From assembly GCA_963971425.1 (NCBI GenBank), contig OZ020519.1, forward strand, positions 5,348,028 through 5,412,027: a stretch of 64,000 nt of DNA, in the 5' to 3' direction. The stretch's first letter is position 1; each line of letters begins with the position of its first letter. The notes beneath the pieces are model-generated. The model saw only the letters and a list, made by a program, of their open reading frames with translations, had not been told where the DNA came from and did no database searches. Of this stretch, positions 1,912 through 63,003 are shown in pieces. The stretch is from Bryoerythrophyllum caledonicum (lineage: Eukaryota > Streptophyta > Bryopsida > Pottiales > Pottiaceae). A program made the position numbers and the translations under genes.

Positions 1912-4900
1912 ATGGTGCATGCTGATCACCTTGTTCTGTATAGTTGTCTCTACTCGGTGACATGCCTCGTCGTGTTGGTCACGTGCCAGTCGCAGAGCAG
2001 TACCTTGAATTCGGGCTCCACCTTATTCTCGAATGCGACACTGGTATCGCCAGGCGGAGTGTTCGAAGTGGGGTTCATCTCCGGCGTGCGGAAGAGTCTG
2101 GCCACACCAGAGTGCACGCTCGCCATCTGGTATGCCAACATTCCGGGCAAGCAAGTCGTGTGGATCCCGCGAGACAGAGCCCTAATCTTGAGCAGCAACA
2201 TAGCCGCCCTGTCCCTGGCCTTGTCGACGCTTGGAGCCTTGCAAGTCTACGACAACAGCGGCGCAGATCCGATGCTTATGTGGAGCTCCGGCACTGAAAA
2301 TGTAAGAAATTCTCACCATCTAGTACTTAAGTAGTGAGTCAGTGAGTGATTCCCTGGTGAATGCAGGAAAGAACCAGTAGTTTGCACTACCCACTAACAA
2401 CCAGTGAATGTCCTTAATTATCCATGTTCAAAGTAGGAAGAATGGTCTTTGACTGAGAGGTTAAGGCTCCATCTCCCACTTTACAGAAATGTCTTTTCTA
2501 CTTTCGTAGGATTCACCAAAGTCCTTAAGTGAGCCATCTTTCCATCTTGACATCCACTACGTACATATTTTGGCATAATCCTTGAAGTAAGGGAACGCCC
2601 CGCAAAACATCAAGCATCCTTGCCTTCATCCAGCCTCAGTCTTGCTGTTGGACCCACTTTAGCCCCGACCACCTACGGGGCTTGCCCTCCACACCACTCC
2701 CTGCCCAATGAACATCCATTTCTCAATAGGTGAACATGTACACCAGTTGGATGATCACTGGGCAGGAAGTGGCATAGAGCGCCGGCTCAGTTGGTGAGCG
2801 AAGTGGTCGGGGATGAGAAGGAGGCCGAATGGAGCCGAGGATGCCTGATGTTCTGCTGAGCATTCACCCATACTTTTAAGCTTGTGCCCATAGTTTGAGA
2901 TGAGTGGTGACGATCAAACCCTGCGTCATGTGCAGCTGGACGTGGCGAGCGCCTCCATTCAGGACACCGGCAACCTGGTGCTGCGCGACACGGCGAGCAA
3001 GGTGGTGTGGCAGAGCTTCGACTCCCCGACGGACACGCTCCTGCCGGGGCAGAATTTCAGCTCCCCCAAGTCCTTGACGGCGTGGGAGAACGACGACGAC
3101 TGGAGCGCCGGTAACTACTCGCTCACGTGGTTAAACTCCACAAACCTGTCCGCGACATGGACGATTCCGTACCCGTGGGAGAACTCGAAGACGTGGGTGT
3201 ACTGGAATGTGGTGGGCTTCTCCCAGGTGTACCTCACGCCGGATGGAGAATTCAGAGGCACGAATGCGACATCACCGGGCAGCTCAGCGTCCATCGGAGC
3301 AGCCTCTGTGCTTGGACCGAACCGCATGATTCGCCTGACGCTGGACAAAGACGGCAACCTCCGGATGTACAGCTGGTCGGACCACGACGGATACTGGGTG
3401 GTCGAGTGGGTGGTCAAGCAGGACTCCTGCTCGATACCTGGCACTTGCGGGCCTTACTCAATCTGCGTCACCTCGTCGTGTACCTGCCCCCCGGGCTTCC
3501 AGTGGGTGGACGCCATGGACAGACGGTTCGGCTGCCGGCGGGTGGACCCGCCGAGGTACTGTGCTGCCGACGCAAAGGACACTTTCCAGCTTCCTGCCTT
3601 GAGCGCAGACTGGAGATACAACGACCTGAAATACATTCAGAACGTCACGTTGTCCTACTGCATGGAGCGGTGCCTGGCCGACTGTAACTGCGAGGCCGTC
3701 ATAGCTAGACTTCCCGATGCTATTATTAATGTCAATCCTGGTTGCTGGCTTAAGAAGTTCGCGCTCATCGATGGGTATGAGACGAGCACTCGGGTGAGTT
3801 ACCTCCGCGTTGGACGTCCCTCTGATCTCAGGCAGGGAAATTCCAAATTCAAAAATATAATTCTCCCCTTGTCAATCGGGGGAGGGCTGGTGCTTCTCGC
3901 GCTGCTCGCCATCAGCCTCTTGACAGTCCGGAAGAAGTTGGAGCATAAGAGGTTACAGGACAAGTGGGTGGTGGTCAAGGGGTCACTAGTCAGGTTCACG
4001 TTCCGAGAGATTCTCCTCATGACTGGAAAGTTTGACCGTAAGATTGGGCAGGGTGGGTTTGGGACTGTGTACGGCGGGCAGCTGAATGACGCCACGGTTG
4101 CTGTGAAGCGGCTGAATAAGGAGCTGTCGAGCCATGTGGAGAAGGAGTTCACAAACGAGGTGGAGATTCTGGGAGTCATCCACCACGTACATCTGGTGTC
4201 GCTGCTGGGCTACTGCAGCGAGAAGGAGCACCGGCTGCTGGTCTACGAGTACGTGGAGAACGGCTCGCTGGACACAGCGTTGTTCCGGGAGGGGAAGCTG
4301 GCCGGCAGTGTGCCTGTGTTGGAATGGAAGGCCCGATTCGCCATCGCCTTGGCGACTGCGCGAGGGTTGGCGTACCTGCACGACGACTGCAAGCAACGGA
4401 TCATTCACTGCGACCTGAAACCCGAGAACATACTGCTGGACTCGACCTACTGCGCGAAGGTGGCGGACTTTGGGCTGTCCCGCATCAAGAACCGCGACCA
4501 GGCCACCCAGACGCGGAGCAAGACGAGTCATATACGGGGGACGTTGGGGTATCTGGCTCCGGAGTACTGGCGGCCAGATGTCGGGACCATCACAAACAAG
4601 GTGGACGTCTTCAGCTTCGGGATGGTGTTGCTGGAGATGATCAGCGGTCGACGCAACTTGAGGCCGACGCCGACGCCCAGTAGCTTGGAGGATTCTGAGT
4701 GCCTCTACTTCCCGTCGTGGGCGTTCCCGAAGCTTGAGACGGGTGCTTTCATGCAAGTGGTGGATCCGGCACTCGCAGGGACGGATGTGCATCCCATGGA
4801 GGTGAAGCGCGCGCTGCAAGTGGCCTTCTGGTGCATCAACAACAAGCCCCACGTGCGGCCGTCCATGAGCGAGGTGGTGCACATGCTGCAGGGCAACGCG

Positions 4901-5059
4901 CCCATCGTGGTGCCCGTGCCGCGCCCGGGCTTCTTCGTCGATGACAACGACGAGTACGGGTTCCAGATCAACGAACAAGCAGAACAGAATTCTGGGAGCA
5001 GCGCCGAAATTCGAATTCTTAGCATGGCGGACTCCAGGATCCTCTCCGAATCACACTGA
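1912..5059 (+). CDS. G-type lectin S-domain receptor-like Ser/Thr kinase (two exons)
   Basis: Plasma-membrane receptor kinase of the S-domain (B-lectin) class, 837 residues, normal for the family. Exon 1 is 1912-2301 and exon 2 is 2936-5059; the 634-bp GT-AG intron joins them in phase 0. In order: signal peptide (about 1-27), B-lectin domain with LVLRD and VVWQSFDSPTDTLLPGQ, Cys-rich EGF-like/SLG part (about 292-330, CGPYSIC, CTCPPGF), PAN-type domain (about 346-421, CMERCLADCNCEAV), transmembrane helix (about 437-457, then RKK), and kinase domain (about 482-775). The kinase has GQGGFGTVYGG, VAVKRL, HCDLKPENILLD, DFGLS and GTLGYLAPEY, so all catalytic residues are present. HCD instead of HRD makes it a non-RD kinase, a type often tied to innate immune or cell-surface signalling. 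The ligand cannot be inferred. The start is the first ATG before the signal peptide. Confidence 0.93.
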
Positions 5060-6428
5060 TCATCAGGCAGGTGAACAAATGAATAAAGCACAGTTCGCAG
5101 ACCCAGTTCATTGAAAGAATGCATTTGGCTACAGGTGGATGCAGCAACTATCAGACGACGTTGCACATTCGAGAAGATTGCCGACGTTTTTCTACATTCT
5201 AGATGCTTCCAGCCATTGTGCCAACAATACACATATATTTGTCAACAATGAAAATGTTGAATTCCCACCTAGCTTGCGTCGAGAGTAGAAAGCGCCCTCT
5301 ATGAAAGAGCTATCTAGATATCGGAACCGAACTGCACCTTGAACCATAGCATCCTACACAGAAACCTGATAGCAGAAACTAGTTTTTCAGACATCTCGAG
5401 GTTTGATCGAAAGCCCACTGCACTTGCACCTATTTATCATATATCCTGTCTAGATAGATTTGTAGACTTACACCTTTCGATTGAAGATTCTTCAACTAAC
5501 ATCTTTCATTTGGAGGTTATTCCATCATGTGAACCTTATCATGTTCAAATACGACACCGTACATGTAGAATACTGTGGTCACCAATGGCACCTTCAGAGC
5601 TTTGAGGGTTGAAAGTCTAGTATGTGAAGCATAGTATTTTCATTTTGCAGCTTCTAGTACTTCCTTGACTGTCACAATTTCATAGTCCACTCAGCGGGTT
5701 CCGATCCAAAATCCTCTTCCTTGCTTCTCAGCTACTCCCATTTCTTGTGTCAAGAAAATAGCTAAGGTAAGCCCCCCATAACCAACAAAAACCCATAGCC
5801 AACGCCTATAAAATTGGGGTATATCCAACCCTCTTCCATCCCATTACCACCAACTCAGTTCCGAATGGAGGTTTGCTACTAGTCAAGACCCTTACTTTTG
5901 GTCGTTGGATATGGGGGGTACCTACTGCTGGCCACCCACTAAACATCGCTACACAGTTTGAAATTCATAACTAATTCAGTTTTCATCGAAAAAATATGAA
6001 ATATTTTGGGTTGAAATTGTAATCCTATTCGCTGTCACTGAAAAATGATAGTAAAATTATCTCATCTCTTCATATATGCACATTCCTTAACTTATCGGTT
6101 TTAGGGGGCTTACCTTACTGCATACATCAACATATCAACTTATCAAGTACCATAAAACCACTGTCAAATACAAATTACTGTGCATACATATTGCCTCATA
6201 AATACAGCATTATAGAATAGATACAAGATTCTACCACACAAACTAGTCAATTTTTCTCACTCTACAAAGGGAGTATCCAAGAGTACAGGATGTTAAAGAA
6301 ATCAGGATTTTTACTTAATGGTAATCCACCACATACAAGCAAATCCTCACCCAAGGTCTCTCCTCTCTCAAAACACACTCATAAGGCTTGACTATGCAAG
6401 AATGCCAAGCCAAAGGAACTCTCCTTTC
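5060..6428. other. Intergenic region downstream of the receptor kinase
   Basis: No gene seen. It contains the 3' flank of the kinase, a diverged TTAA-family repeat copy (about 5460-5606) and otherwise unassigned A+T-rich DNA. Confidence 0.5.
5460..5606 (+). repeat. TTAA-family repeat copy (subfamily C), partial
   Basis: The stretch contains GACTTACACCTTTCGATTG, ATTCTTCAACTAACATC and CACCAATGGCACCTTC. The same blocks occur in the same order at 25427-25630 and 33823-34036, and inverted at 26856-27079. The 5' end is diverged and the TTAA at the 3' end is mutated to TTGA. Confidence 0.65.
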
Positions 6429-7954: not shown

Positions 7955-9000
7955 AGAATTAAACCCTTAATGAAAAAAGTTCCAAGGTGGACTTTTGCAA
8001 ATCTCGGGCACGTTCTCATGGTTGCAATTTATATTTGTAATTCTTGAAATTTTGCACAAGTATGCAAGAAGACAAGAGGTACATTGGAGTATAATTTTTA
8101 TTCTCATTGGACTTATAAAAAAAAGGGTATGCCATCTAGAAGAAAAAATTGGTGAGTGCGCGCATGTCGGCCAACTCCAAAAAAATTTGGTAGGACACTT
8201 TAGCAAATTTGAAATTTCGATACTAGCAAGTGATATTATTTCCTTTCATATTGTATTAAAACATATCTTGTCTTCAATGAAAAATTGCATTCTATCCCAA
8301 ATCATACATTTTCACACATTGCCACATTGTCGGACAAGGTACCAAAATAACTTCTTCATTTCCACATAATGTTTAGAAATCTTTATATTTTTCACTTTTT
8401 ATTTTCTCTATTACAAGACGTGGTGTAATCCTTCTTATTGATCGTTTGGATTATTATTCAAAACATATTTTGTTCCCAAAAAATCAAAACGTGAATTGGT
8501 ACTTTTTGAACCTCCATTCCTTGCACAATTCTTTTGAAAATGCTACACCTTTTTTCTACCTCCAAAAAATTGGTGTACAAGGTGATAATATCATGATCAA
8601 CATGATGATATCAAATTTAGACCTTGTGTAGTGCAAAACTTTGACACAGGGCATTTTTTATTGTTTCGCGGTTTTAGCAAGAGTGGCGACACAAATTTTT
8701 TGGAGACCACACAAGTGGGGACACAAAGTTTCTCCTGAAACTTCATCTTCATAAACATAGATTTGTACATCGTTTTTGGAGGCAGGATGGAGTCCTTGCT
8801 ATTCACTAGTAGCAATATGGTAATATGGAAACGGCCATCCATGTAATTTTGGCGACATAAAATCATAATTTTTCCACTTTTTTTGGAATATTCTTTTTAG
8901 GGGGGGAATTCTCCATTTAGCTCCAAATTGCCAAAAAAAGCCCTGCTTGACACCAAGTGAAGTCAAAGTTTGCCGATTCACTCGATGCAGGGATGAAAAT
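7955..9000 (+). repeat. TTAA-family long repeat, left part, split by the giant MULE
   Basis: The sequence matches copies at 37565-38020, 56454-57748 and 59033-59920, and inverted at about 43316-45200. Shared blocks include TTTGCAAATCTCGGGC, TTTTCACACATTGCCACATTGTC and AATTGGTGTACAAGG. It breaks off at GGGATGAAAAT (8990-9000), and its continuation begins with the same 11 bases at 21168. It is non-coding. It is the target into which the MULE inserted. Confidence 0.8.
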
Positions 9001-9017
9001 CAGGAATGCTATCTTGT

Positions 9018-9051
9018 GAGCAGTGAGCGGTGAGCGACGAGCGGCGAGCAC
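9018..9051 (+). repeat. Subterminal GTGAGC-like repeats at MULE left end
   Basis: Five near-identical hexamers (GTGAGC, GTGAGC, GTGAGC, ACGAGC, GCGAGC) follow the terminal GCTATCTTGT. A single GTGAGC sits in the right terminal repeat. They may be transposase binding sites; this is inference. Confidence 0.5.
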
Positions 9052-9781
9052 CAAATTCATGACAATTTTTACCATTTCTTTTGTTGTGAAATTAAAAAGA
9101 ACACCTATTGCCGTGAGTGTAGGTGGATTGTGCATCAAAAAAAAATATTAACATAAGAGAAATTCTTGACTTGCAATCGCTTTAATTTATAGTTTATTGA
9201 ATAGAGGCACCTATAGCCGTGGAACTATTATGAGAATTTTGGGAAAAAATTACATCCAAAAGTAAACTGATAAGAGATAATGTAACATATATTACAATGC
9301 AAACTTCTATTTCAAATATTAACGATTCTATATATGCTTAATGAGGGAGAAGTAATAAACATTGCTCGAATAACTCTACGACTTGCAGTAGAGGAATTCT
9401 CCCGGATATGTATTGCTATTCTAATTAAGTCAAATATGTAGTACTATTATAATGACTGTTTAGGTTAAAGGAAATTTCTGCAAGAAGGTTTAGGGTGTTG
9501 AATGGAGAGAATGATAGTGGTGGACCATCTAAAAATAATCGAAACTTTGTATACTATTCATGATGTGATAATTGTATACTTCCAAAATTCAAAGACACAT
9601 TATAAAAATTGATTAAAATCCATCCGTGAATGATAATTCAATATCTATTAGATTATCTAACTAGAGTACAAACATTTATGTGGATGAAACAAATAATCAA
9701 ATAAGACATGCAAGGGTGATATATAACCATAAATCCAAAGCCTCACATCAGGTCAATACGGCATACAAAATAGAGGAATCA
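9052..9781. other. Non-coding left arm of the MULE
   Basis: A+T-rich, no coding frame seen. It presumably holds the 3' flank of the cargo gene on the minus strand. Confidence 0.5.
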
Positions 9782-12700
9782 CTACTCCTCAGATGTGAAC
9801 TCATCGTCACTGCCCTGATGGATTAACGGCATACTGCTATCAGAACCACTATCAGAATCAGTACTAGCTTCCTCAGCCTCGTCATCCACAAAAACCTTCG
9901 CTCCGGAGCCGGATCGAGCAGCCGGTGGATGTCGTGGAGGCGACGGTTGCGCTACGGATGCAATGGCAGCAGCTTCAGCATATTCAGGCAAAATATGCGG
10001 CTGCTCCGGACTGACAACCTTCCCTGCCAAGCGAGCCAGCACTCATGCGGGAGGTGTTGATAGAGAAGCCATCAACGACGTCGAGAACCGTCTGCAACTA
10101 ATTTTCATTAACAAAATACCAATGATAGAATAAGATAACAAAAACAACAAATGAATGAAGAGAACTTACTTACAAGTTCTCTTAGGCGCAGTCTTAATCT
10201 CTGGTTCATCATCACCAAGCTCCAAAGGGCGCTTGAGAGAAGTCTGCTCCATGGGCTCAACAATCGCAGAATTAACCTCCAACGTTTGTGGAATCATGGG
10301 TCAAAGCACCTTGTCTACCAAATCCTTGCTTGCCTCCAAGGCAAGAATATGACGCTTGAGGGCTTTGCAAGCCTTGATAGATGCACCTAGAAAAAGTGTG
10401 GACTGCAAACACTAATAAATTAGAATCATGGTTGGATAATAAAAAAAAATGATTAGATGAAATGCAAATACCAGTAGAAGCGGTGAGGTCCATGACGATC
10501 TCATCCTCCTTGGTGCAAAGATCAATAAGAGCTTCCAATAGATTCTACGACTTCTCTCTCGCTCCTCGCCATGGCATCTTGGTGGAGGCTCTCACCGTCA
10601 ATGACTCCTGGGTGATGAAGTTGGTCAGATGACCGTCTAAAGAAAGCTCAATTCCATCCGCCAGAAGCTCGACTCTGTCATTGAAGACAAATGGAGTTGG
10701 AGGATCCCTCTTTCAAACGAAGCACTTGACCATGAAAGTCTTGTGTACGCGGCCGGGGCGAGCATCAGAGAAGATGAGAAGTCCATTGATGGCGAACCAG
10801 TTCGCCTCTTCGTCGAATCCCGACCACTGAGCCTAGGAAACCAGTTCATTTGAAATGAACTTGGAATCTGGATAGAACACGATGATAGCTCCTCCATCAT
10901 GAAGAAACGACTCTACCAACTCGAAGTTGAACCGAATCCACAATGATTATTTCCGACCCTTGGGGGTCGGCACTGTAGGTAGTGTGTTCCATGGTGGAAT
11001 CACAGTACCACCCTGAATGCCTGGAACTGGCAAGTCCTCCGGGACGTCAAATATGAACATATCCGCCAAACCATCCTTAGCCAACTCCCCCTTCATGTAC
11101 CGCGACTTGGTCCGCCATGGGCCATCAACCACTGTGCTATATCCCTCCAAACTGGCGGAACGTCATCCTCAGCTGTAACTGAATCATACTCAGTAAAGAT
11201 AGAGTAGGCACTGGTATTGATTACCTCAACAGCTACAGTGGACTCTATCTGCTCCACTATAGGAATCAAATAGATGGTCTGCGCCGGTTTAGCAACGAAT
11301 GCTGATGGGCAGCTGCTGGCGGATGAAAAAGGGCCAAATGTTGTCAATATAGGTGCCGGTTGTAAGAACGATCCAAGACCGATGGCAGACAACAATTTCT
11401 CGGGCCCTTCTTTTGCCACCAGAGCTGCCAACTCCTTGTTCCTCACTCAAGTCTCTTTCCTCTCCTTCCTTATAGTCTCCTTCTCCAAACGGGCCGCTTC
11501 TCGCTCTGCTCCTCTGGCTCCAATCCTGACCGTCTTCTATTTTTCCCTCTCCTTGGCCTTTCCAAAGAGCTCAAGGTCAGGCTCAATCTGGAATGGAGCT
11601 GAAGCTTGCAAAGCTGGACCCACTCCAGAATGTGTTGCTACGGTATCACATGACTCCCGAAGCTCCACCTCGTCACCTGGAGTTGGAACTGAATGCCAAA
11701 ACTCCAAGTACCAAGGCTACTAAGCCAAATGATGCCGAGTAAAACGGCGCAACTGAGACTATGTGAAGATGCACTCAGCGCTGACTGTGGTATCACACCA
11801 CTTCCTCAGCCGGATAGGCAACTTCCGAGGCTACAAAGCTCCATTGGCAACGAGCTCTCGCCAAAACTATCGGAGCACCACTCTCTTGACACTCTGAGGT
11901 GTCTCTGGCTGCTTGAGAAACTCATCAGGCTTCACGAACGGCTTCGTTCCACTGAAATGGTTCTTAAACGCCTTCTTCCAGAATCTGAGAGAGTTGGCCT
12001 CCACCCATGAGCCAATATCCAGAACGGGGTTAGGGAGACCCTCCATCCTAATGGTGATGTTGTCATCCTTCACGACCTTGGAAAATAACTTCTCAGCCTC
12101 CTCCTCAAGCTATACAATGAAAACAAAATGTTAGTGAACAAAACTTACAACTGATGGAAAAATAAAACATAAAACGATTTAAGAAAATTAAACTTATCCT
12201 TGCCCAAAATGAAGCCACGTCAAGCCAGGGTTTAAGACTGATCTCCGAACATGGTGCTTTTGGAAAATTGAATTCATCCCTCCCCTCTTTCGACAGATTC
12301 CACCAACGCATCCATCTACCTTTGAACCTCGCAGAAACCTTGGAAGTGCAAAGCAATTGCAACTTCTCTGTTGTAATTTCGGGCTTGTTCTGATAAACAT
12401 CATAATGATGAAGAACCTAAATCAAACGATAACAGAGAAGTGGTCAATAAAAAATATAAAATCATTTGAAAGATATTGAATGAACAAGTACAATGAATTC
12501 AATAAACGACTACCTCTTTGAAAAACTCTTCACCATTACGAGGGTCAGCAATGGCAAGAAGTCGGGTGAGTAAGGTGCCACATTGAGTCTTCTTCTTTTG
12601 CACCACTTCGGAGCATAGAGTGACCAACTCCGCAGAGCTCCCAACACGATCAGCCCCAACACCGGTCACAAGTGTGTCACGGTAAGATCGAATACAATCT

Positions 12701-13848
12701 TCTTAAGCTGCAATAAGCTCCCGCTACACGAAGAAATTTTTTTAGTGTATTAGTATACTTTCCCAAAAAAATTCAATAACATTGTATATAGGTATTCTGG
12801 GGCATAGATAATAGCATAGAGTACACAATGTTGGACCAAATTTAATCCCAACGTAGCTCATAAAGTAACTTCAAGAATAAATCGAAGGTGATATGGTACC
12901 ACTTTTTGGTGCCCTTTCTAGCCCACTCGGCCACACTAGCATCGTGATCCTCCTCACTAATCAGACCCTTGAGCTGATCGAAGTCCAACAATCCAAAATA
13001 TTGAACTCTCTTCACATCATGTGACAGTTGTTGTGTCACATGGTCGGAGTCTTTTTGTCTGAGTGACAATGTTCATGAACTTTAAAGTCATGCGAGAATA
13101 ACAATAAAAATACAAATCTGTTGAAAAAACCAAACCAAAAAAGGAAATAAAGAAAAGAACTCACTTGTTCAAGTCCGTCATGGCGTTTAGTAATATATGG
13201 CGGTTCACCAATGTAGGCTCTAATAAAACTATCCAAACCGGAACATGAAAGGCAGAATCGTTTCTATGCATGGTGGATATGACATCCATCCATGCAAGAT
13301 GGCGGTGGTTGACATCCCACATAAAAAAGTAACGATCACAAAGGCATTGTAACTCTGGCCTACTCGCAATCAAAGCTTCGAACTTCTGGTCCTCCGCCCT
13401 CCAAAGGTCTGACCATTCCTCACGCTCCTCAGGCAGAACTTCCCGTTCGACCATGGAAAAGTCCTTCAATGCGACATAAAAACATGCAGATCCTGGGCGG
13501 TAGCCTTTGACAAACTTGCTCTTCAGCTTTTCTATGTCCGGCTTCACTGGAATACGGCGTACGCACCTCTGTCATTGGCACCATTCGGCAGAGTGGGATG
13601 TGCAACTCCTCAATAGCCGGATAATGAGACTTCTGGAGCACATCGTAGGAAGTCCCACGAATGGACTTCCTCAATGAAAGCTTTGTTGTGTCCAAACCGG
13701 GATCCACCCCCATCACCGGTATAACTTGCAGGACTAAACTCGAATCAGCATTCGGCGATCTCGAAGCCTCTGGAGCCGAAGTTGTGTCCTCACTAGGCAT
13801 CCCCAAGTCCTCAATTGGCGTGACCTTGTCTCCGTGCAGTGACTCCAT
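9782..13848 (-). pseudogene. MULE cargo: ParB-like plus permuted N4/N6 DNA-methylase-like protein, decayed
   Basis: Multi-exon minus-strand gene. The N-terminal part (from an ATG at 13848) includes YRPGSACFYVALKDFS and RYFFMWDVNHRHLAWMDV, like the DGNHR motif of ParB/sulfiredoxin folds. A splice at about 13162/13059 joins LNK to QKDSDHVTQQL in frame. Later exons are near 12715-12512 (IRSYRDTLVTGVGAD), 12410-12190 (RFKGRWMRWWNLSKEGRDEF) and 12113-11870. One long exon (about 11150-10471) reads ADMFIFDVPEDL (motif-IV position), DGGAIIVFYPDSKF, then NLLEALIDLCTKEDEIVMDL and TASTG. After an intron it continues GASIKACKALKRHILALEAS. This is the IV-then-X-I order of permuted amino-methyltransferases. 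The tail is acidic (9782-9880). At least five in-frame stops and two frame changes make it a pseudogene. The methylase reading rests on motifs by eye; DVPE replaces DPPY/W, so catalysis is doubtful even ancestrally. Confidence 0.65.
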
Positions 13849-14213
13849 CTGATGACATCTTGTGTAAATCACAAGGATTTACAAACAACAGCATGAAAGA
13901 AGTGCTTCTCTTAACTCAAGCAATAAAATCAAATGCAACAAAATATGAAGGAAGCAGCAGCACACAAGATGTAAGGAGCATGATATGACTAAAACTGAGC
14001 ATGAAAGAAACCTTATCGCACATCGAGATGTTTAAAATGAATCCAGCTTGTTAGAACAAGTTCCACAATGCAGAATCGAAATAAATAATTCAGAAATAAA
14101 TGGATTCCAAAATATGAATGAACTGAACGAGTAACTATAAGAAGCTTTAACTTCGATGAAGGTGTTACCAGTAAACAAAACAAAATGAAACAAAAATCAG
14201 CTGTGCATACAGT

Positions 14214-15035
14214 CCGAGGGACCCGATCCTACCTTCAACTTAGGTTTTTTTTTTAACATCAATCTATCTAATCTGAACTCTCACTACAACAATCGCAAAC
14301 CTAATCTAGAGATGAAGTGAAATGGACCTAGAACACATCCGAGCAATACTGAACTAAGAATCCAAAAACCACAGACTGATAGAAGCTCAAGCACAAAATA
14401 CAACAAGTACCTTTTGCAATGTTCAAGGTGTAAGCCAAAAACAAAACAAAAAAAGATCACAAATCAGCACTTCTCACAATTCTCGGATCCGAGGGACCCG
14501 AGTTTACCTCCAAGTTCGGTTTTTTTTTCTTATCTATCTAGTATCTTAACTATACTCTGATTAATGTAATCGCAAACCTAATCTAGAGATTAAGTGAAAT
14601 AAACCTAGATCACATCCCAGCAATACTGAACTAAGAATCCAAAAATCACAGACTGATGAAAAGCTCAAGAATGAAACACAACAAGTACCTTGTGCAACGT
14701 TCAAGGTGTAAGCCAAAAACAAAACAAAAAAGATCACAAATCAGCACTCCTCACAGTACCTCGGATCCGAGGGACCCGAGTCTTCCTCTAAGTTCGGTTT
14801 TTTTTCTTATCTATCTATCATAACTATACTCTAATTAATGTAATCGCAAACCTTATCTAGAGATGAAGTGAAATAAACCTAGATCACATCCCAGCTATAC
14901 TGAACTAAGAATCCAAAAATCACAGACTGATGGAAAGCTCAAGCACGAAACACATCAAGTAGCTTAAACGTGTCAGAAGGTATAACCAAGAACCAACAAA
15001 AAATCCACAATCCAGTGCACACAGTCCCTTGGGTT
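14214..15035. repeat. Tandem repeat, three copies of about 275 bp, inside the MULE
   Basis: Units start at CCGAGGGACCCG at 14214, 14489 and 14767; a fourth partial start (TTCGAGGGAC) lies at about 15035. Each unit contains an oligo-T run, AACCTAATCTAGAGAT, CTGAACTAAGAATCCAAAAA and TTCAAGGTGTAAGCCAAAAA. The stretch lies in what would be the 5' intron or leader of the minus-strand cargo gene. Confidence 0.85.
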
Positions 15036-15170
15036 CGAGGGACAAGAGGCTCTATTCGAATCTGGAATCCATTCTTTTGATAAGAAGAGGAAGCATCGTC
15101 ATCCATTCCAAGAAGATGCATAACAGGGTTCATTTCCGAGTAGAGTGTGTACTCACCATGATAGCGAGCC

Positions 15171-15541
15171 CGTTCTTGTCGGCTTCGACAGCCTCTGCTC
15201 CAAAGCTCTTGAACCCAACTTTGGCTCAGCTCTCAGAAGCGCCATCTTGATTAAGTCTCAACGCATTTAGGGTTTACTAAATTCTATGAACTATGCTCAC
15301 AAGATCAAGGTTTATAAGAACGGAAATTCTGAAATGGGTGTTGGGTAAATTGCTACGGACTTGTGATCAGACGTCGAATACAAGTATCGAACTTTGAAAG
15401 CGGACACAGGACTTAGCTTTCTCAATTTTGAAGTGGAACGTTTGAGTTGAAAAAGTCTTGAACTTACCTCTCTAGCTTGTGGCTGCAGCTCCACGTCGTC
15501 GTGCGTCTCCACTCCCTTCACCGTTCTCACGACCTCTTGCC
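15171..15541 (-). other. Possible 5' exons of the MULE cargo gene
   Basis: Two minus-strand stretches end in good splice donors. One ends at about 15470 (GCTAGAGAG followed by GTAAGT) and is preceded by a CTCTTGCAG acceptor; it encodes ETHDDVELQPQARE. The other ends at about 15171 (ATCATG followed by GTGAGT) and encodes FGAEAVEADKNGLAIM. The phases between them do not resolve, so their place in the gene is uncertain. Confidence 0.35.
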
Positions 15542-16002
15542 TGCAAGAGAAACGGATTCATTTTTATGCATATCAGGGTTCAGCAAATCCACCTTTCATT
15601 TAACCTAATGTCCATGGACGACTCTTAAATGCGATGCTATGGCAAAAACTATAGCTGAAATAGTTTACCACACCAGAAGTACACTTCAGCCGCCACTTGA
15701 AAGTTGACAAACTACATGGTATGTAAAGTTAATGTTTAGTGACGCCACACAATAGCAACGGCTTGTGCTCGAGTTGAATTCAAAAATGATTTTTCCCCTT
15801 AGCATGTAGAGATGATCCAGATGCCTTATAACTCGCGAATATTGAATCGGTCAATCTCCTCACAAATTAAAAAATGATTCTTGAAACCTAATAGCCTAGG
15901 AAGCATAACGCACAATATAGTTGGAGATGCATTGAGCTAATTAGGAAACCGAAATTACGATGCATATTGTAAATCGTTCTGATGATATCGTATCTGTGTC
16001 AT

Positions 16003-16612
16003 TTAGGCCTGCTCCGCACTCAACAGTATTGGCCCAGTTTCCCCAGCGCTTCCTCGATCGTTCCTTGGTCGACCATTGGTTGCCGTAGACGAGGACCTAT
16101 TCCTATTCCTTGTGGATCGTGATGAATTTACTTGGCTCCTAGGATCCATACTTGAGTCCATGCTTTGACAGTCATTGTCGTCAACAACACCGTTTGCACC
16201 CTTACCCCCATACATTGAGCTTACTGAGGCATTAGGTCCCCTGAAATCACTCATCATAATATCTTGTATAGACTCTTGTTCCCCCCTTTCTCTATGCAGT
16301 TGCATCACATAGCTGTACGACTACACAGTACGAATTAAAGTATGACCAATATAGGATTGCACTATTGAAAACTAACTAACCATATGAAAATGAAGCACTT
16401 ACTTCGACAGTATTGTGTGGCACCTCTTCTGCTTGAAGTATACTTGACAAGTTCCTAAATCGCACGGACCCCTCAGATGATAAGTCCTCACGACTCTCCT
16501 CTGAAACCAAGGCCTTGTGTTGTTGTTGCTGCGTTGGGGACCTACTGGGCTTTGGATTTGAGTCGTGTGTTGTTCTTCTCTTCCGGTTACCCTTGCTTGT
16601 CATCCTCTGCAA
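16003..16612 (-). CDS. Small two-exon Ser/Asn/Arg-rich protein inside the MULE
   Basis: Exon 1 is 16612-16403 and exon 2 is 16320-16003. The intron has GTCGAA followed by GTAAGTGC at the donor and GTGTAG at the acceptor, and joins in phase 0 to give 175 residues. The N-terminus is basic (MQRMTSKGNRKRRTTHDS), with a Gln run (QQQQHK) and an acidic Ser stretch. Exon 2 holds GERGEQESIQD-like acidic and SRSTRNRNRSSST basic segments. No family was recognised. It lies between the divergent cargo and transposase genes, the usual place for a MULE accessory gene (compare mudrB of MuDR), and it is the only internal gene without a stop in this copy. A disordered DNA- or RNA-binding protein is possible; its function is unknown. 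Confidence 0.5.
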
Positions 16613-17498
16613 GTCGTCCTAGTTGCGTTACATTGAACATTTTCACCAGGGTAGGGCTGCTATGATATGGCAAGACATCGTTGAACCATAATTACCCATA
16701 CTTAGTTCTATGTTACTATTTCAAGCAGTTGCCAACGGTATGGCCCATAATCCGCATCTACTTTATCAATTGTGGTCAGCCTTAATTTGAATTTCAAAAA
16801 CAAAGTTAGTCGTGGCTATAGCATTTCTATTATTTGCTTCTGCAGTCACAAGCAGTCCACTTTTTTGGATTTATCATTCATCTAAAGTGAATAACGACAA
16901 CACCGGGGAATAATTAACTTTAAGCAGACTTAGTGGCTTAGCAGATACAACTAGTGCTTATCTATTTGTAAATTGCTTACTCAGATCATGACCTCTAGAT
17001 TTGAATCAGAACTTTGTCGTGTTTAAAAGAGGTGTGTCAGATTGTGTGCAAGTGGTACTGGTAGACTAAGAATGCATTATACCATCGTAAAGAGAAACTG
17101 CGTGCTATGCGATTCTAGCAGTAAACAAAGTATTTTACTCTCTTTCAATTAGTCATCTCTCATCACTCTTCTCATTGGCTATTTGATGTAATTTTAGTTA
17201 AAAACGAGTGAATATATAGCATATCAACTGTATGGTATACTCCGCCTTAGTAGGATCAACCTATTAATTTCTTTCCTTAATTTGAAATCTTTTCCATAAA
17301 GATTGAGGCGCCGTCAAGGAGCATGCATGGGCATTTGACAGAAGGCATTAAATATTTTCGCCAATTATGAGCACGATGCGTTTCCGTAATTGGACGTCTC
17401 CACTGAGATGTTTAGGCAAGCAGTTGATTTCTTCAATATACAACCGCCATCGTAGACAACACACATTCCATATCCTATGTTGTGGAGAGCTCTTGACT
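16613..17498. other. Intergenic spacer between divergent MULE genes
   Basis: A+T-rich, about 0.9 kb, with no clear coding. It separates the minus-strand small gene from the plus-strand transposase and probably holds a two-way promoter region. Confidence 0.45.
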
Positions 17499-20400
17499 AT
17501 GGCATCACTCTCATCTCAGTATGGTGGTGTTCCGCTTGTCGTGTCCGTTGGTGAAAATGGCACTGTTAATGTCCCGGAGGCAGTCCTCAATAGTCGCTTT
17601 GGGTTTAGACTTGGAACCGTTCATGTTGAATAAGAGGTGTTTGATAGCTCAGGAGTATTAGAACATTCTATATACCAAGTGAAAGATCGAGACGATTTAG
17701 GCTTTGTGTGGAATCTGTGTCGTGGTTCTTTTACAGTATATGGTGTTAGGGATACTCAAACGTCCGCTAATGCGTCGTGTGCCGTGATGATCCTTCCTAC
17801 CGATTCCGGTGAGACAATACTCGTGCCCGGTTTGGGCACACGGTCTAACCCAAGTGTGCAGCTTCTAAGTGACACAGGCGAGGACCTCTCTTATGTGAAT
17901 TTGGGGGAATCATCATACACCTTTAAGTCACATGACTCTATCTGTCCTAATGCGTCTATCCATACCCCAAGTAGGTCGCACATGTCTCCGTCTCTTTCCT
18001 TTAGAAAACCACATGTCCATCCGAAATCAAAAAGTATCCGCAGTATCATTCCATATGTTTGTAGGACCTGTTCTAGAAAGGGATCCCGTTCTGAGTTGAC
18101 ACACGTGGATTTTGACAGCATTTAGGTTTCACGTGTGAAGTATTTGCCTTCGTCTTACAACGGAGACGTGTTGTTTAAGTTGCCTCCACTTCCAGAAGGC
18201 ATACCAACTCAATTTGGAGGAGGACTGGATGGTATGAGCAAGCAACACGATGGTCACACATGGTGCAGGACAATGACTACGAATATCATGAATGATTTTG
18301 GTCTGACATACCGAAAGTCATCTTGTACTGGCCATCTTCAATGTCCTAACCTTCATTGTGACTATAAATGCAGGAATAAAGGTCGCACTAATCAAACGGA
18401 GTGGAGTGGACTTGCCATTTCCCCCTGGCCTCTCAATGGCGCTCCGCACCTTAAATCAACCTTGGCTTGTAAGGTTTGTCAAACCCCGCCTATTTGTCCA
18501 GCTCTCTGTCATGCACGTATTTATTATGTGACGTGTACCGATGCGGAGCGCACCCGACTTGCCATTCATCTTGGTATTCACCAGCATCCCATCTCAAATG
18601 GAGTTGACCAAACCGCAATGGACGTGATGCATAAGTGCATTGCGAAAGAAATCGAGCGCACATCCGATGCCACTAATTCTACAATCATTATGGCTGCCAG
18701 TAAGAATTACCTTTCCAATTACTTGATCCGTCCCGGATCGGGATCATCAAACCTTGAAGAAGCATCCATGGATGCTGTCTTGGATCACTTCCACACTCTA
18801 TCATCCCCTAACATAAGGAATTTGGTGTCGACATGCAAGCGCTTCTACAGTGGTGGAAAGGGTGTCATGGACAACATCATGGAGCTAAAGGAGTCATCAA
18901 AGTTTGTCTTCATCCATGAGAACAAGTTCCGGGGCCAATCTAAAGGTAAGGTATTTGTATTTAAAATGTCTGTTGATCGTCTTGGTAGCGGTGTTGATCT
19001 TGTTTGGCGGATGCAACCTAGTGGAGATCTCCAAGATTGTTGGTTGATATTTGATCACGTAAAGCGGGTTAAAGACTGGACTACCATGGCATGTCATGTA
19101 TACAATAGTAAGTATTGTAAAGTTATGACGATAGCTATGTGTGATATGCAATCGGAGGATGCTCAAGCACAACAGTTGTTTTGGGAGAACCTGAATGATA
19201 CGATGTTGAATCACGGAGTAGAGAACACGAACTTCAAAGGGTTCATGGCTGATAGTGCCGGAGCGAATTGGCACTCTATTCGGCGAGCGTATGGCAATGG
19301 CGACAAGGACGTCCCGATCGAAAACAAAGAACGGACTTGTTTATTCCATTGGACCAAATGCCTTCAACGAGCCACCACAAAGAGCATTCTACCAGCATTC
19401 CAAGATCAACACATTGCACTTTGCAGGATTTGGAAGAACGCGAGATTACAAGAAGAGGCTGAAGCACAATACAACGTCATTCATGGATGGTGGATTTCAT
19501 CTGGAGCCAGTACCGAAAGCGGGCGTCGTGCGCTAGAAGACTGGATGGCTTTTTGGCATTTCCGATATAGACAATGGGGTGGAGCAATGCAACTAGTAAG
19601 TTCTCGCAATGGTGTTTATAAATATTCAAATTGTTGAAAAGTTATATGTGAACGATGTACTGACCATTGTTGTATGATATCACGACCTCACACTCGACGA
19701 GCGAGCTGACATGCCATCATGTAATCTTGCGGAGACAGTCCACAACCGCTGGCTTCAATAGTCCGGGAATACCATGACATGTTTATATGCGGCTATCGTA
19801 GATGACCTAATTCGGGCTTTCATGCAAATCACTTCGTACCGAGCATGGATCAATGGTGGGACCTCCGGAAAAGGTCCAGACAAAGATACACTTCCATTAA
19901 GACCTGCCCAACGTTCTGGTGATCCAAGACTCATTGCAGAAGCTGTGCAGAGTTTTCTGGGGGCAGAGGATCTCTTGACAAAGACGGGCGGGCTCGAAGG
20001 CGCGGAGATTTTTGGGTCTACCAAACGGAAACTTGACATGCCACCCGGGTCTAGCAACGACTCCCCCGTTCCGATACGGTGAACTATTTGATTCCACGAG
20101 ATGGCAGAAGGGTGACTCGAGCGCGGATCGAAGAGGTCATTAATGAACAAGGTTCCGGGGTCCGTCACACAATGGCAGTATTGGAATCGGAGTGTGATCC
20201 GTCAAAGTGGCACATTGGTCGACTTCCGAAGACCTCCCACCAAAAGTGCCAGGCATTGCAAGCTCACACCGGTGAGAGGTGTGACGCTAGAGTTGGGCGT
20301 GGAAGTAAGGGAACACCTGTCCCAACATTTATTGGCAAGAAGAAGGAATTCAGGTCGCCCCGAAACACTTGTGTCGAGTTCTGGTTTTGTGCTAATGATA

Positions 20401-21050
20401 TTAGCCGATGCATGATGGGTTTGAAGAAACTGTTTGTAGTGGACTGGCCATCAGTCCCAATGACATGGCCAGTGAAGCTTGGCACGAACCTAACGATGCA
20501 AGAAGTTTTATCGTTAGAAGAAGCAGGTTTCCAGTTAGAGCAACATGGTGCTTTGTCGCCTCGTAGACAATTTCAAGTAACTTTGAACATGCCTCTTCCG
20601 CGATCGAACTTCCCGCTTCCAGAGAATCCGGACTCGTACCATACTTTCGGCAACGGCTACCAGATTCGCCAAAGTTCATATGTGTCTTCCGTTGAGCACC
20701 GAAACAAGTGGTCAAGCGCAGCTCTTATGAAGAATTACTACGTTACGAATGCCACCGCAATGCCGTATCCGGGATTTGGATGCGTTATCACTTTTCTCAC
20801 GGAGAAGGAGAAGTCTTATTGCATAACCTTCACAGACTACCCGGCGTGTACATGTCCAGATTTTGTGAAGATGTCAGTGTAGGCATTGGGGAAGAAAGGG
20901 CAATGGAAGTACTGCAAGCATGTGTACTACATCCTACGCTATTTATGTAAGATGGACTACAAGGAGGACTTATTCATGCATGCCCCAAGCTATAGTTTTA
21001 ACGAGGTCATGCGCATTCTAGAGCTTGCTAATGTTGCCGAGCAAGCATGA
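17499..21050 (+). pseudogene. Mutator-like (MULE) transposase with C-terminal SWIM zinc finger, decayed
   Basis: One main frame starts at ATG 17499. The longest uninterrupted part is 18135-19637 (500 residues). It holds Cys-rich motifs (CPNLHCDYKC, CKVCQTPPICPALC) like a FLYWCH/WRKY-type DNA-binding part. Next comes the MULE core: WLIFDHVKRVKDW (first Asp), GFMADSAGANW (second Asp), CLFHWTKCLQR (the CxxHW of MULEs) and a Glu-rich helix. A likely intron (19596-19701; CTA followed by GTAAGT, then ACGAG) leads to NLAETVHNRWLQ. The SWIM finger follows at about 20842-20935 (CTCPDF, then KYCKHVYYIL). In-frame stops lie at 17631, 18123, 19759 and 20880, and there is a frame change near 20080. The role would be cut-and-paste transposition of the 12.2-kb element. 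The exact DDE triad is not certain by eye. Confidence 0.8.
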
Positions 21051-21167
21051 ATCTCGCAATGAAGTATCTTCTAAATAGTATTTGTATTTTCCGGTAGCTC
21101 GTATTTGAACATGTGAAATTGGTTTTGCTTGTCACGTGTATGGCTCACATGACAAGATAGCGTTGCT

Positions 21168-21385
21168 GGGATGAAAATGAACCATTTTTTGTACTTCAAA
21201 CACTATATCTTTCAATTTCTGTGGTCAAAGTTGATGAAATTTTGTGAGTATATTATTGATAAAGGGTTAAATGAGATACTTTGGTTAAAACAAGAATTAC
21301 TATTTAGTTCCCTTCCTTACTCATTGTGTTAAATTAATAGTTTTGAAGTGTTTTTGGTGTGAAATTGTCAAGGAAATTTAGAGGT
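21168..21385 (+). repeat. TTAA-family long repeat, right part after the MULE
   Basis: This continues the copy broken at 9000: GGGATGAAAATGAACCATTT, ACTTCAAACACTATATC, then GTCAAGGAAATTTAGAGG and TTAA at 21386-21389. The end corresponds to GGTCCTTTAGGGG-TTAA of the better copy at 38812-39621. Confidence 0.75.
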
Positions 21386-61298: not shown

Positions 61299-63003
61299 CA
61301 GTCCCTTCTACAAAGTAAGGTAACTCCCCATGGGTCAACTCACATGTGTTACACAGTTGATTTGATCGAACATCCAAATTAGGAAGCTGATTCAGCCAAG
61401 ACAAATTGCAATTATATAATTGTAGTATCTGAGAATGTATTTATGAGCCGTCAGTGGCTTCTAGACTAGCAATTCCATATGTTACATCAATTGAGTACCA
61501 TGTGGTATGTGAAGCTTTTTGAAGCAATGCAGATATTTTTTAGAATAGGGAGCTCTGTGAGTACCTAAGTCGCTCAATTTTGGTTGCGATGTCACGAAGT
61601 TGAGTAGTTGTGATGATCTGTGAGTTGAGAAGGTCACTCATACCTAGAAGGTTTTGCTACAAAATTAGATTTCTTGTGATGCTGTAGTTGTTGGTTTAGT
61701 AGCTCATAGAATTGTTGTATCTGTCATTTGGCAAGTTCATTTTCACTCTCCCTCACTAGTACCATGACAAGTTACTTCTTATCAGTAAAAGAACAAAGTT
61801 TTATTGTAGGAATGAACACAGCTGGAGCATCTTTGAGTGAAATTGTAAATGTAGTTGGAAAATTAAAAAAAGAACATTTCATTAGTCCTCAAGAGATATT
61901 GAGAGCGAGGTTCAGTACAAATAGCAAAAAGATCTGGACGTCCAAAAAAGTTGCAAGAGATTGATCCTCAAGTTTTCAAATATGAGATTGTCAAGAATTG
62001 TAGAATACCTCTTGCTGAACTTGCTAGCTAGTAGCTTGCCCATTTCTGTGAGTATGAATACCATACGAGAAGAAGTGCATGACCTTGGATTTGGCAACCA
62101 AATTACCAAGAAGAAACCTTTCTTGAATGAGAGACACAAGAAATTGAAGTTAGCCTTTGCGAAAGAGCATAAACATTGGACGGTGGAACAATGGAAGTTG
62201 GTTATTTGGAGTGATGAGTCATCATTTGAGATCGGTGCTTATTCACGTCAAACTCGAGTATGGCGAACTACTTCACAAAAATTTCATTCACAATGTTTAG
62301 CACCAACATTCAAGTCTAGAAGGATGTCAATCATGGTTTGGGGTGCTTTTACTGCAACTAGTAAGTGTTTTTTATTTTAATTCCTTTAGACAACGACTGC
62401 TATGGACTTTGTAGAGATTGTATGTGAGCAAGGATTATTGCCCTACTTCTACCACCATGCTAACCATGAAGAACTAGTATTTATGTTGGATGGTGCACCA
62501 ACACATACAGCCAGAGTGACAAAAAATTGCATCAAAGATATTGGTTTAAAGATGCTCAATTGGCCTCCAAATTCTCCTGACTTAAACCCTCTAGAAAACA
62601 TGTGGATGATTTGTAAAGATAGGGCCCAAAAGATGAAAAGACCAAAAAACAAAAAGCAAATGTAGAATGCAGTGCAAGCAGCTTGGGAGAGCATACCAAT
62701 GGAGATGTTAGACAAGTTAGTTGCAAGCATGCCAAAACGGATACAAGCTGTTATTGATGCCAGAGGAGGTAGCATACAGTGGTAGTGGTAGTTGTTGATC
62801 GATCCAATTTTCAAGTTAGAAATGATTACAAAAGATTTATATTTTTTAGCAAGAAGCTTCTACATGTATAAAGCTAACTATTTATGGAAAAAAATTCTAT
62901 ATTTGATGTGTATATGAGGTAGCATTAGTCAAGTTTTCTTGCTGGTATCTTCATGTGTGTGTGTGAAATAGCAAGCGGTTACCTTACTTTGCGGAGGGGA
63001 CTG
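61299..63003 (+). mobile_element. Tc1-like DNA transposon (DD34E), 1705 bp, complete ends
   Basis: The left end is CAGTCCCTTCTACAAAGTAA followed by GGTAAC. The right end, reverse-complemented, is CAGTCCCCTCCGCAAAGTAA followed by GGTAACC. Both are flanked by TA (61297-61298 and 63004-63005), the Tc1/mariner target. The CAGT start is the classic Tc1 terminus. The length is that of an autonomous Tc1. The transposase inside is broken, so this copy is inactive. Confidence 0.92.
61770..62786 (+). pseudogene. Tc1-type transposase, decayed
   Basis: Helix-turn-helix part: GMNTAGASLSEIVNVVGK, then a frame change before SGRPKK (61933-61950, the GRPKK hook between the two DNA-binding domains). Catalytic part: VIWSDESSFE (first Asp at 62213), MLDGAPTHTA (second Asp at 62489), WPPNSPDLNPLENMW (Glu at 62594). 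Thirty-four residues separate the second Asp from the Glu, so it is DD34E as in Tc1, not the DD39D of plant mariners. The C-terminus reads on through one TAG (62663) to MPKRIQAVIDARGGSIQW. Two adjacent stops lie near 62029-62034, and there is a gap between 62360 and 62402 where about 25-30 residues are missing or an intron-like GTAAGT...TTTAG occurs. Confidence 0.88.

Follow-up and report, generated by a model that had tools for sequence, protein, structure and literature searches.

A 64,000-nucleotide stretch of contig OZ020519.1 of the moss Bryoerythrophyllum caledonicum (positions 5,348,028 to 5,412,027; hereafter the window) includes a DNA transposon at 9001-21167, which carries, besides a transposase, a long cargo gene with a ParB/sulfiredoxin-like motif and a methyltransferase-like domain. 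Does this gene belong to the transposon, and what could its protein do there? A preliminary description, made from the letters of the window, saw a giant 12.2-kb Mutator-like element (MULE) with a possibly DNA-modifying cargo. The comparison with other copies suggests that the window holds a decayed copy of a ~13-kb MULE-type family and that the cargo may be a self-targeted protein aiding the element against host silencing; the probability of this reading is put at about one half.

The element and its family

The element is located between two exact 11-bp direct copies of GGGATGAAAAT (8990-9000 and 21168-21178). The left terminal inverted repeat corresponds to the outermost 17 bp (9001-9017, plus strand), which are 88% complementary to 21152-21168, and the right terminus lies at 21146-21167 (plus strand). 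Just inside the left terminal inverted repeat, there are GTGAGCGG-type short repeats, which are common to other copies. The transposase is encoded on the plus strand (17499-21050), while the cargo gene (~9785-13836) and a small two-exon gene (~16003-16612) are on the minus strand. Both the single target duplication with matching inverted ends and the set of a transposase plus two minus-strand genes, as reported in the preliminary description, are borne out.

The genome searched is 437 Mb in size. The best 40 candidates of each DNA search and the best 140 of the protein search were scored, and all pair counts given below are therefore lower bounds. The first look returned 585 candidates for the left end, 1098 for the transposase and 310 for the cargo DNA. 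Among the best 40 scored, 39 non-window matches of the transposase are 93-95% identical, and all 40 matches of the cargo DNA, the window included, are at least 90% identical. Ten further copies, designated as K1 to K10, were picked from the top of the left-end and transposase match lists. K1 and K2 are of the window's type (subfamily A), and K3 to K10 constitute subfamily B. The transposase half of subfamily B is 92-94% identical to the window (86% over ~515 bp for K7 and K8), and the matched cargo stretches are 63-68% identical.

Target duplications of 9-11 bp were found at the same termini in eight of the 11 copies (K1 to K10 and the window), which confirms the ends of the family. In K4, the duplication can be read either as an exact 9 bp or as 11 bp that differ at one position. 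Duplications were sought and not found in K1, K7 and K9, and the right terminus of K1 was looked for without success. K3 and K4, located on different contigs and flanked by different target duplications, share 99.93% identity across 12,764 bp; therefore, the family moved recently. The complete copy K3 measures 12,954 bp, and its two-exon transposase gene (1154 amino acids) and its cargo gene are both open. The complete element type is thus ~13 kb and autonomous-type, encoding a transposase and an accessory protein whose gene is transcribed away from it.

The window copy is a dead, decayed member of this recently active MULE-type family. Its cargo gene, recognized through homology to the modelled gene of K3, is disabled by stops and frame breaks. 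Exon 1 (13164-13836), which includes the ParB-like block, and exon 5 (10470-12109), which includes most of the methyltransferase domain, are each broken into two frames, and an alignment with the open K2 counterpart shows 11 stops in exon 5. The transposase gene is also disabled in exon 1 (17499-19595, plus strand), with a broken frame and 10 stops, some of which fall in the intron spanned by the alignment. The base pair preceding its exon 2 (19684-21050, plus strand) is AC in the window and AG in K3. Relative to K3, the window copy is without ~660 bp directly inside the right end. The giant MULE proposed at first is thus a real MULE-type element, but its 12.2 kb represent an incomplete copy.

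The transposase is called MULE-type, with weak profile support, because the element has target duplications and inverted ends, and because a CxC...CxH stretch like that of SWIM can be recognized by eye in exon 2 of the window and in K3. The target duplication of MULEs is ~8-11 bp in length, and both the observed duplications and the termini common to the copies agree with MULE traits. One transposase frame of the window matched the Transposase_mut profile with E 0.21 (10.8 bits; cut-off 21). The Mutator/MULE profile showed no match for K3 up to E 5, nor for the lineages D and E described below up to E 10, and Pfam SWIM gave no match for the window or K3. The transposase thus reaches no curated Pfam cut-off (MULE, SWIM).

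Linkage and selection of the cargo gene

The cargo gene of K3 was modelled on the minus strand with seven exons and GT-AG introns, and the predicted protein has 1135 amino acids. The exons join in phase, and their positions agree with those of subfamily A and of L050, a contig from outside the moss genome. L050 (CADCWO010000058.1) and L051 (CADCWO010000134.1) were found in a scan of prokaryotic genomes; they are two contigs of one metagenome-assembled genome of an uncultured Synechococcales cyanobacterium, and their cargo genes show intron-like interruptions at the places of the moss introns. Because the L050 gene is interrupted where the K3 gene has introns, these contigs are probably eukaryotic contaminants, moss DNA in a bacterial bin. 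The joining of the cargo exons is predicted, and the ParB-like and methylase exons could in principle be two host-unrelated genes misread as one. This was set aside as very improbable, given the in-phase GT-AG joins of K3 and the same order in L050, whose pieces are 58-63% identical, as well as in the lineages D and E.

Among 40 listed matches each of the cargo and the transposase, 20 pairs agree in order and strand, with a spacing of 7.2-17.4 kb. No pair within 20 kb in any other arrangement is present among the 40 × 40 listed matches; the subfamily B cargo is too diverged from the query to appear in the cargo DNA list. There are 14 pairs of left end and cargo with a spacing of 1.5-2.3 kb among the listed matches, and all seven other left-end loci returned continue into cargo sequence (one of them, L004, is K1). 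Accordingly, neither ends without the cargo nor a cargo standing alone as a host gene was seen in these matches, although a free-standing copy may exist elsewhere in the genome.

The linkage extends to more distant relatives. Lineage D adjoins K10 (L040 and L041; G000:C3:22144301-22158300), and its transposase is 39-45% identical to that of subfamily B in pieces, with the cargo gene on the opposite strand. A genome search with P0043, a cargo relative from Ceratodon purpureus, gave 169 matches among the best 140 of 3109 candidates, and the top 13 rows are free of stops where they match. The top row, found by the methylase alone, is designated as lineage E. At this one locus, the flank includes a transposase on the predicted side and the opposite strand, whose identity to that of subfamily B is 43% in exon 1 and 67% in an 81-residue part of exon 2. 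Lineages D and E keep the same order of the ParB-like and methylase parts. The divergent pair of transposase and cargo thus recurs in three deeply separated lineages, whose transposases are ~43% identical.

Between subfamilies A and B, synonymous change in the cargo is saturated (proportion of synonymous differences, pS, 0.74-0.76), and the nonsynonymous divergence (dN) is 0.30-0.33. By region, dN is 0.20-0.25 for the ParB-like part, 0.23-0.25 for residues 211-430, 0.39-0.42 for residues 431-790, 0.24-0.29 for the methylase and 0.45-0.49 for the tail. The ratio of dN to synonymous divergence (dS) between K1 and K2 is 0.21 for both the cargo and the transposase, and it is 0.475 between the cargo genes of K1 and the window. 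The method overruns exon edges, as K3 compared with itself gives pS 0.004 and a ratio of 0.565; the values of 0.35-0.85 among the subfamily B cargo genes reflect few changes and this edge artefact, and are uninformative. The cargo is under strong purifying selection between A and B, and so it belongs to the element. The dS of the transposase of K1 and K2 against K3 is only 0.17-0.18 while the cargo is saturated, so transposase and cargo do not share one history. Most simply, this would mean that families exchanged halves.

MULEs do capture host sequence, and the window copy is decayed; the cargo could thus be a captured host gene or fragment, a Pack-MULE-like passenger without function for the element. 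The purifying selection on the cargo speaks against this, as does the completeness of the multi-exon gene, which is open in recent copies. In addition, transposases only ~43% identical to each other are accompanied by one and the same gene, whose exon positions are shared and whose motif I intron has an equal phase. The passenger was therefore set aside as hardly probable. The available account of Pack-MULEs describes non-transposase sequence inside MULEs as gene fragments, mostly 1-2 kb in length (PMC6431247), whereas the element here contains a complete conserved gene in 13 kb.

Domains of the cargo protein

The whole K3 cargo, used as a single-sequence query, gave nothing at E ≤ 0.001 among 7686 candidates. 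A profile of the domains of A, B and D revealed 47 relatives, and a wider profile 44, of which six were new (P0049-P0054). P0043 is the sole relative listed with an organism. None of the wider-profile relatives was named as an alga or a bacterium, among the few for which names were shown. Two scans of viral contigs gave no cargo relative, and a giant-virus remnant as the source of the cargo was set aside for the contigs scanned.

The C-terminus of the cargo is best described, from its sequence, as a permuted β-class amino-methyltransferase domain. The K3 cargo matched Pfam N6_N4_Mtase (PF01555) with E 5.3e-6 and 27.0 bits, just above the cut-off of 26.7; the domain alone reached 30.1 bits, and P0043 35.0 bits. 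P0049, P0021 and P0015 are below the cut-off, and P0030 has no match. Methyltransferase families of PHROG also match the cargo (best E 2.1e-7). When nine family members are combined into a profile, it aligns over the full length with CcrM (6pbd; E 4.8e-7), and with DpnA over motifs X, I and II. Motif IV lies ahead of motif I in the cargo, and this is the permuted order of the β class.

In the window copy, motif IV is DVPE (11037-11048, minus strand), where CcrM has DPPY, and motif I is DLTASTG (10470-10490, minus strand). Motif IV is covered by 43 of the 50 aligned rows of relatives (seven do not cover it); many of the 50 are short predictions with a single member, and decaying copies are probably the source of some. 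D-x-P-E, mostly D-[VI]-P-E, is present in 32 of the 43 rows. The fourth residue is acidic in 39 rows and Lys in the other four, and an aromatic residue as in DPPY or SPPY ([DNS]PP[YFW]) is observed in none of the 43. Lineage D has DLKD. Nine diverse members, whose identity to the first of them is 28-44%, all have the Asp, and eight have P-E; P-x-W-N just downstream is invariant. This form of motif IV is thus a stable trait rather than a product of decay in single copies. In the profile comparison, the motif IV stretch of the family aligns to the DPPY of CcrM. Motif I ranges from DIGAGTG in P0043, through D-L-T-A-G-T-G in some relatives, to DLTASTG, and its first Gly is often Ser. The two motifs together would fit binding of S-adenosylmethionine (SAM) with an altered or lost catalytic step. 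The intron within the motif I glycine codon has an equal phase in subfamily B and lineage D. In the B copies, the intron after motif I is stop-free and keeps the frame (L039:1871-3814, and likewise the corresponding exon of other B copies), and a retained-intron cargo product is possible there.

Motif IV is mostly D-[VI]-P-E and, in the rows that cover it, never DPPY or SPPY, so ordinary base methylation is doubtful. The cargo could still be an active amino-methyltransferase for N6-methyladenine or N4-methylcytosine, marking the element, if Glu is tolerated or if another aromatic residue, for example the conserved Trp further downstream, holds the base. The β-class domain over its full length, the DIGAGTG and DLTAGTG forms of motif I in P0043 and some relatives, and the invariant motif IV Asp and P-x-W-N would suit such an enzyme. 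The lack of an aromatic fourth residue in every row covering motif IV and the frequent Ser in motif I do not, and an active enzyme is considered unlikely. A similarly low probability is given to a structural or DNA-binding partner in transposition, acting in targeting, synapsis or strand protection, with the methyltransferase fold as a pseudo-enzyme. The linkage to the transposase, the altered motif IV and the purifying selection are compatible with a partner of this kind, but the A and B halves differ in history, and a tightly fitted complex is unlikely to swap halves so freely.

The N-terminus of the cargo includes a D-G-N-H-[RK]-x-x-A-W block, which is invariant in all five rows compared (A, B, D, E and L050). 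In the window copy, it reads WDVNHRHLAW (13290-13319, minus strand), and other copies have WDGNHRHxAW. It resembles the G-x-H-R-type box of ParB and sulfiredoxin. The label ParB for this part is likely but unproven.

Candidate function, known systems and other features

In A and B, tandem arrays whose period varies with the subfamily are located just upstream of the cargo gene. The array of the window (14291-14961) has a period of 274 bp and 2.4 copies. The periods in the other subfamily A copies are 273 bp (K1) and 442 bp (K2), and those in subfamily B are 221 and 139 bp in K3 (element positions 4886-6013) and 220 and 140 bp in K10. Lineage E has a 233-bp array between recognized cargo exons.

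The VANC proteins of the Arabidopsis VANDAL elements bind short motifs that have amassed as tandem repeats upstream and within introns, and VANC removes DNA methylation from the VANDAL element (PMC5735166). Like the cargo, VANC is a MULE-borne accessory protein encoded beside the transposase, and its family-specific repeats occur upstream and in introns. The VANC domains include DUF1985, and the word methyltransferase is absent from the main text of that article; the resemblance to the cargo is a functional analogy only. Because an accessory gene and family-specific arrays are combined as in VANDAL, the cargo most likely recognizes its own element. Each complete element encodes a predicted 1.1-kaa (thousand amino acids) accessory protein composed of the ParB/sulfiredoxin-like block, the middle domain and the methyltransferase domain, and all three are recognizable in the window copy (minus strand). 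This protein would act on the DNA of its own element, probably via the family-specific tandem repeats, and, in the manner of VANC, it could protect or re-mark the element and thereby help it to escape host silencing or to reset it.

Several points weigh against a self-targeted protein. No Pfam ParB match was obtained for the K3 cargo, its domains, the relatives scanned or the lineages D and E; no ParB or sulfiredoxin chain was present among the PDB matches up to E 10; and a PHROG ParB-like phage family matched over the block only at a sub-threshold E of 0.25. The ParB/sulfiredoxin-like motif of the preliminary description is thus upheld as a conserved DGNH block, but not as a profile match to ParB. 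For the permuted amino-methyltransferase proposed there, the PF01555 score and the motif order agree, and motif IV is not DPPY-type. D-[VI]-P-E speaks against the ordinary DPPY-type chemistry, and the protein may either write a methyl mark or only bind DNA and SAM. Structure prediction gave low confidence for the ParB-like and methylase regions (mean predicted local distance difference test scores 34.0 and 32.6). In lineage D, the repeats amount to a single 96-bp pair. DNA binding and methylation by the cargo, like its expression, are putative, and the seven-exon gene is a sequence-based model.

A broader scenario is offered tentatively, and we regard it as improbable in its entirety. A methyltransferase-fold clade with D-[VI]-P-E-x-L-P-V-P-G at motif IV may have long travelled with moss MULE-type transposons, each family having its own array. 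The ParB-like part would load on the repeats, and the methylase-like part would write a non-standard mark, or read or block that of the host, as a self-addressed epigenetic module exchanged between families.

The combination of such domains on a transposon is already known. A Sola1 element of Ectocarpus encodes, on the opposite strand, a 1104-aa protein with ParB-like and N4C/N6A methyltransferase domains (PMC12477816). As far as that account goes, it is similar to the cargo in size (1104 against 1135 aa), in the strand opposite to the transposase, in the domains and in its location on a large DNA transposon. The Ectocarpus carrier belongs to the Sola1 superfamily in a different host, whereas the carrier here is MULE-type, and the likeness is limited to architecture, size and strand. 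The combination, which the preliminary description did not recognize from any known element, is therefore not without precedent on record. In the literature covered, outside which lay most subscription papers and two works on green and red algae cited by the Ectocarpus article, no MULE was found described with a gene of this type. The present comparison adds a MULE-type carrier, a moss host, the depth of the linkage, the selection result and D-x-P-E.

CcrM and other β-class amino-methyltransferases share the permuted motif order and the full-length profile match with the cargo. The cargo is different in having D-[VI]-P-E for DPPY, a fusion to ~800 further residues, and eukaryotic introns. The bdelloid N4CMT and the Marchantia enzyme for N4-methylcytosine are bacterial-type amino-methylases used by eukaryotes (PMC8885841); they are host genes in those accounts, while the cargo is transposon-borne.

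If transposons carry DNA-marking or mark-blocking proteins, mobile DNA meets host silencing with a weapon derived from bacterial methylases. The similar architecture of a brown-algal Sola1 element and a moss MULE-type element would imply repeated recruitment or passage between superfamilies. The many candidates (310 for the cargo DNA and 3109 for the methylase domain, with the best 40 and 140 scored), together with near-identical copies, make self-marking or self-shielding by a transposon directly testable, and the D-x-P-E proteins would naturally test how far the active site of an amino-methylase can change.

The small minus-strand gene of the element (16003-16612), which lies between cargo and transposase, encodes a basic, Ser-rich protein, weakly conserved between A and B (27-38%); it is perhaps a helper like mudrB. 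Elsewhere in the window, a long open frame at 2894-5059 (plus strand) looks like an S-locus-lectin receptor kinase. Frames of the window that look receptor-kinase, aspartokinase and F-box/kelch-like point to a land plant, and the Ceratodon relative of the cargo points to a moss. An open frame at 61925-62380 (plus strand) resembles by eye a Tc1/mariner-type transposase.

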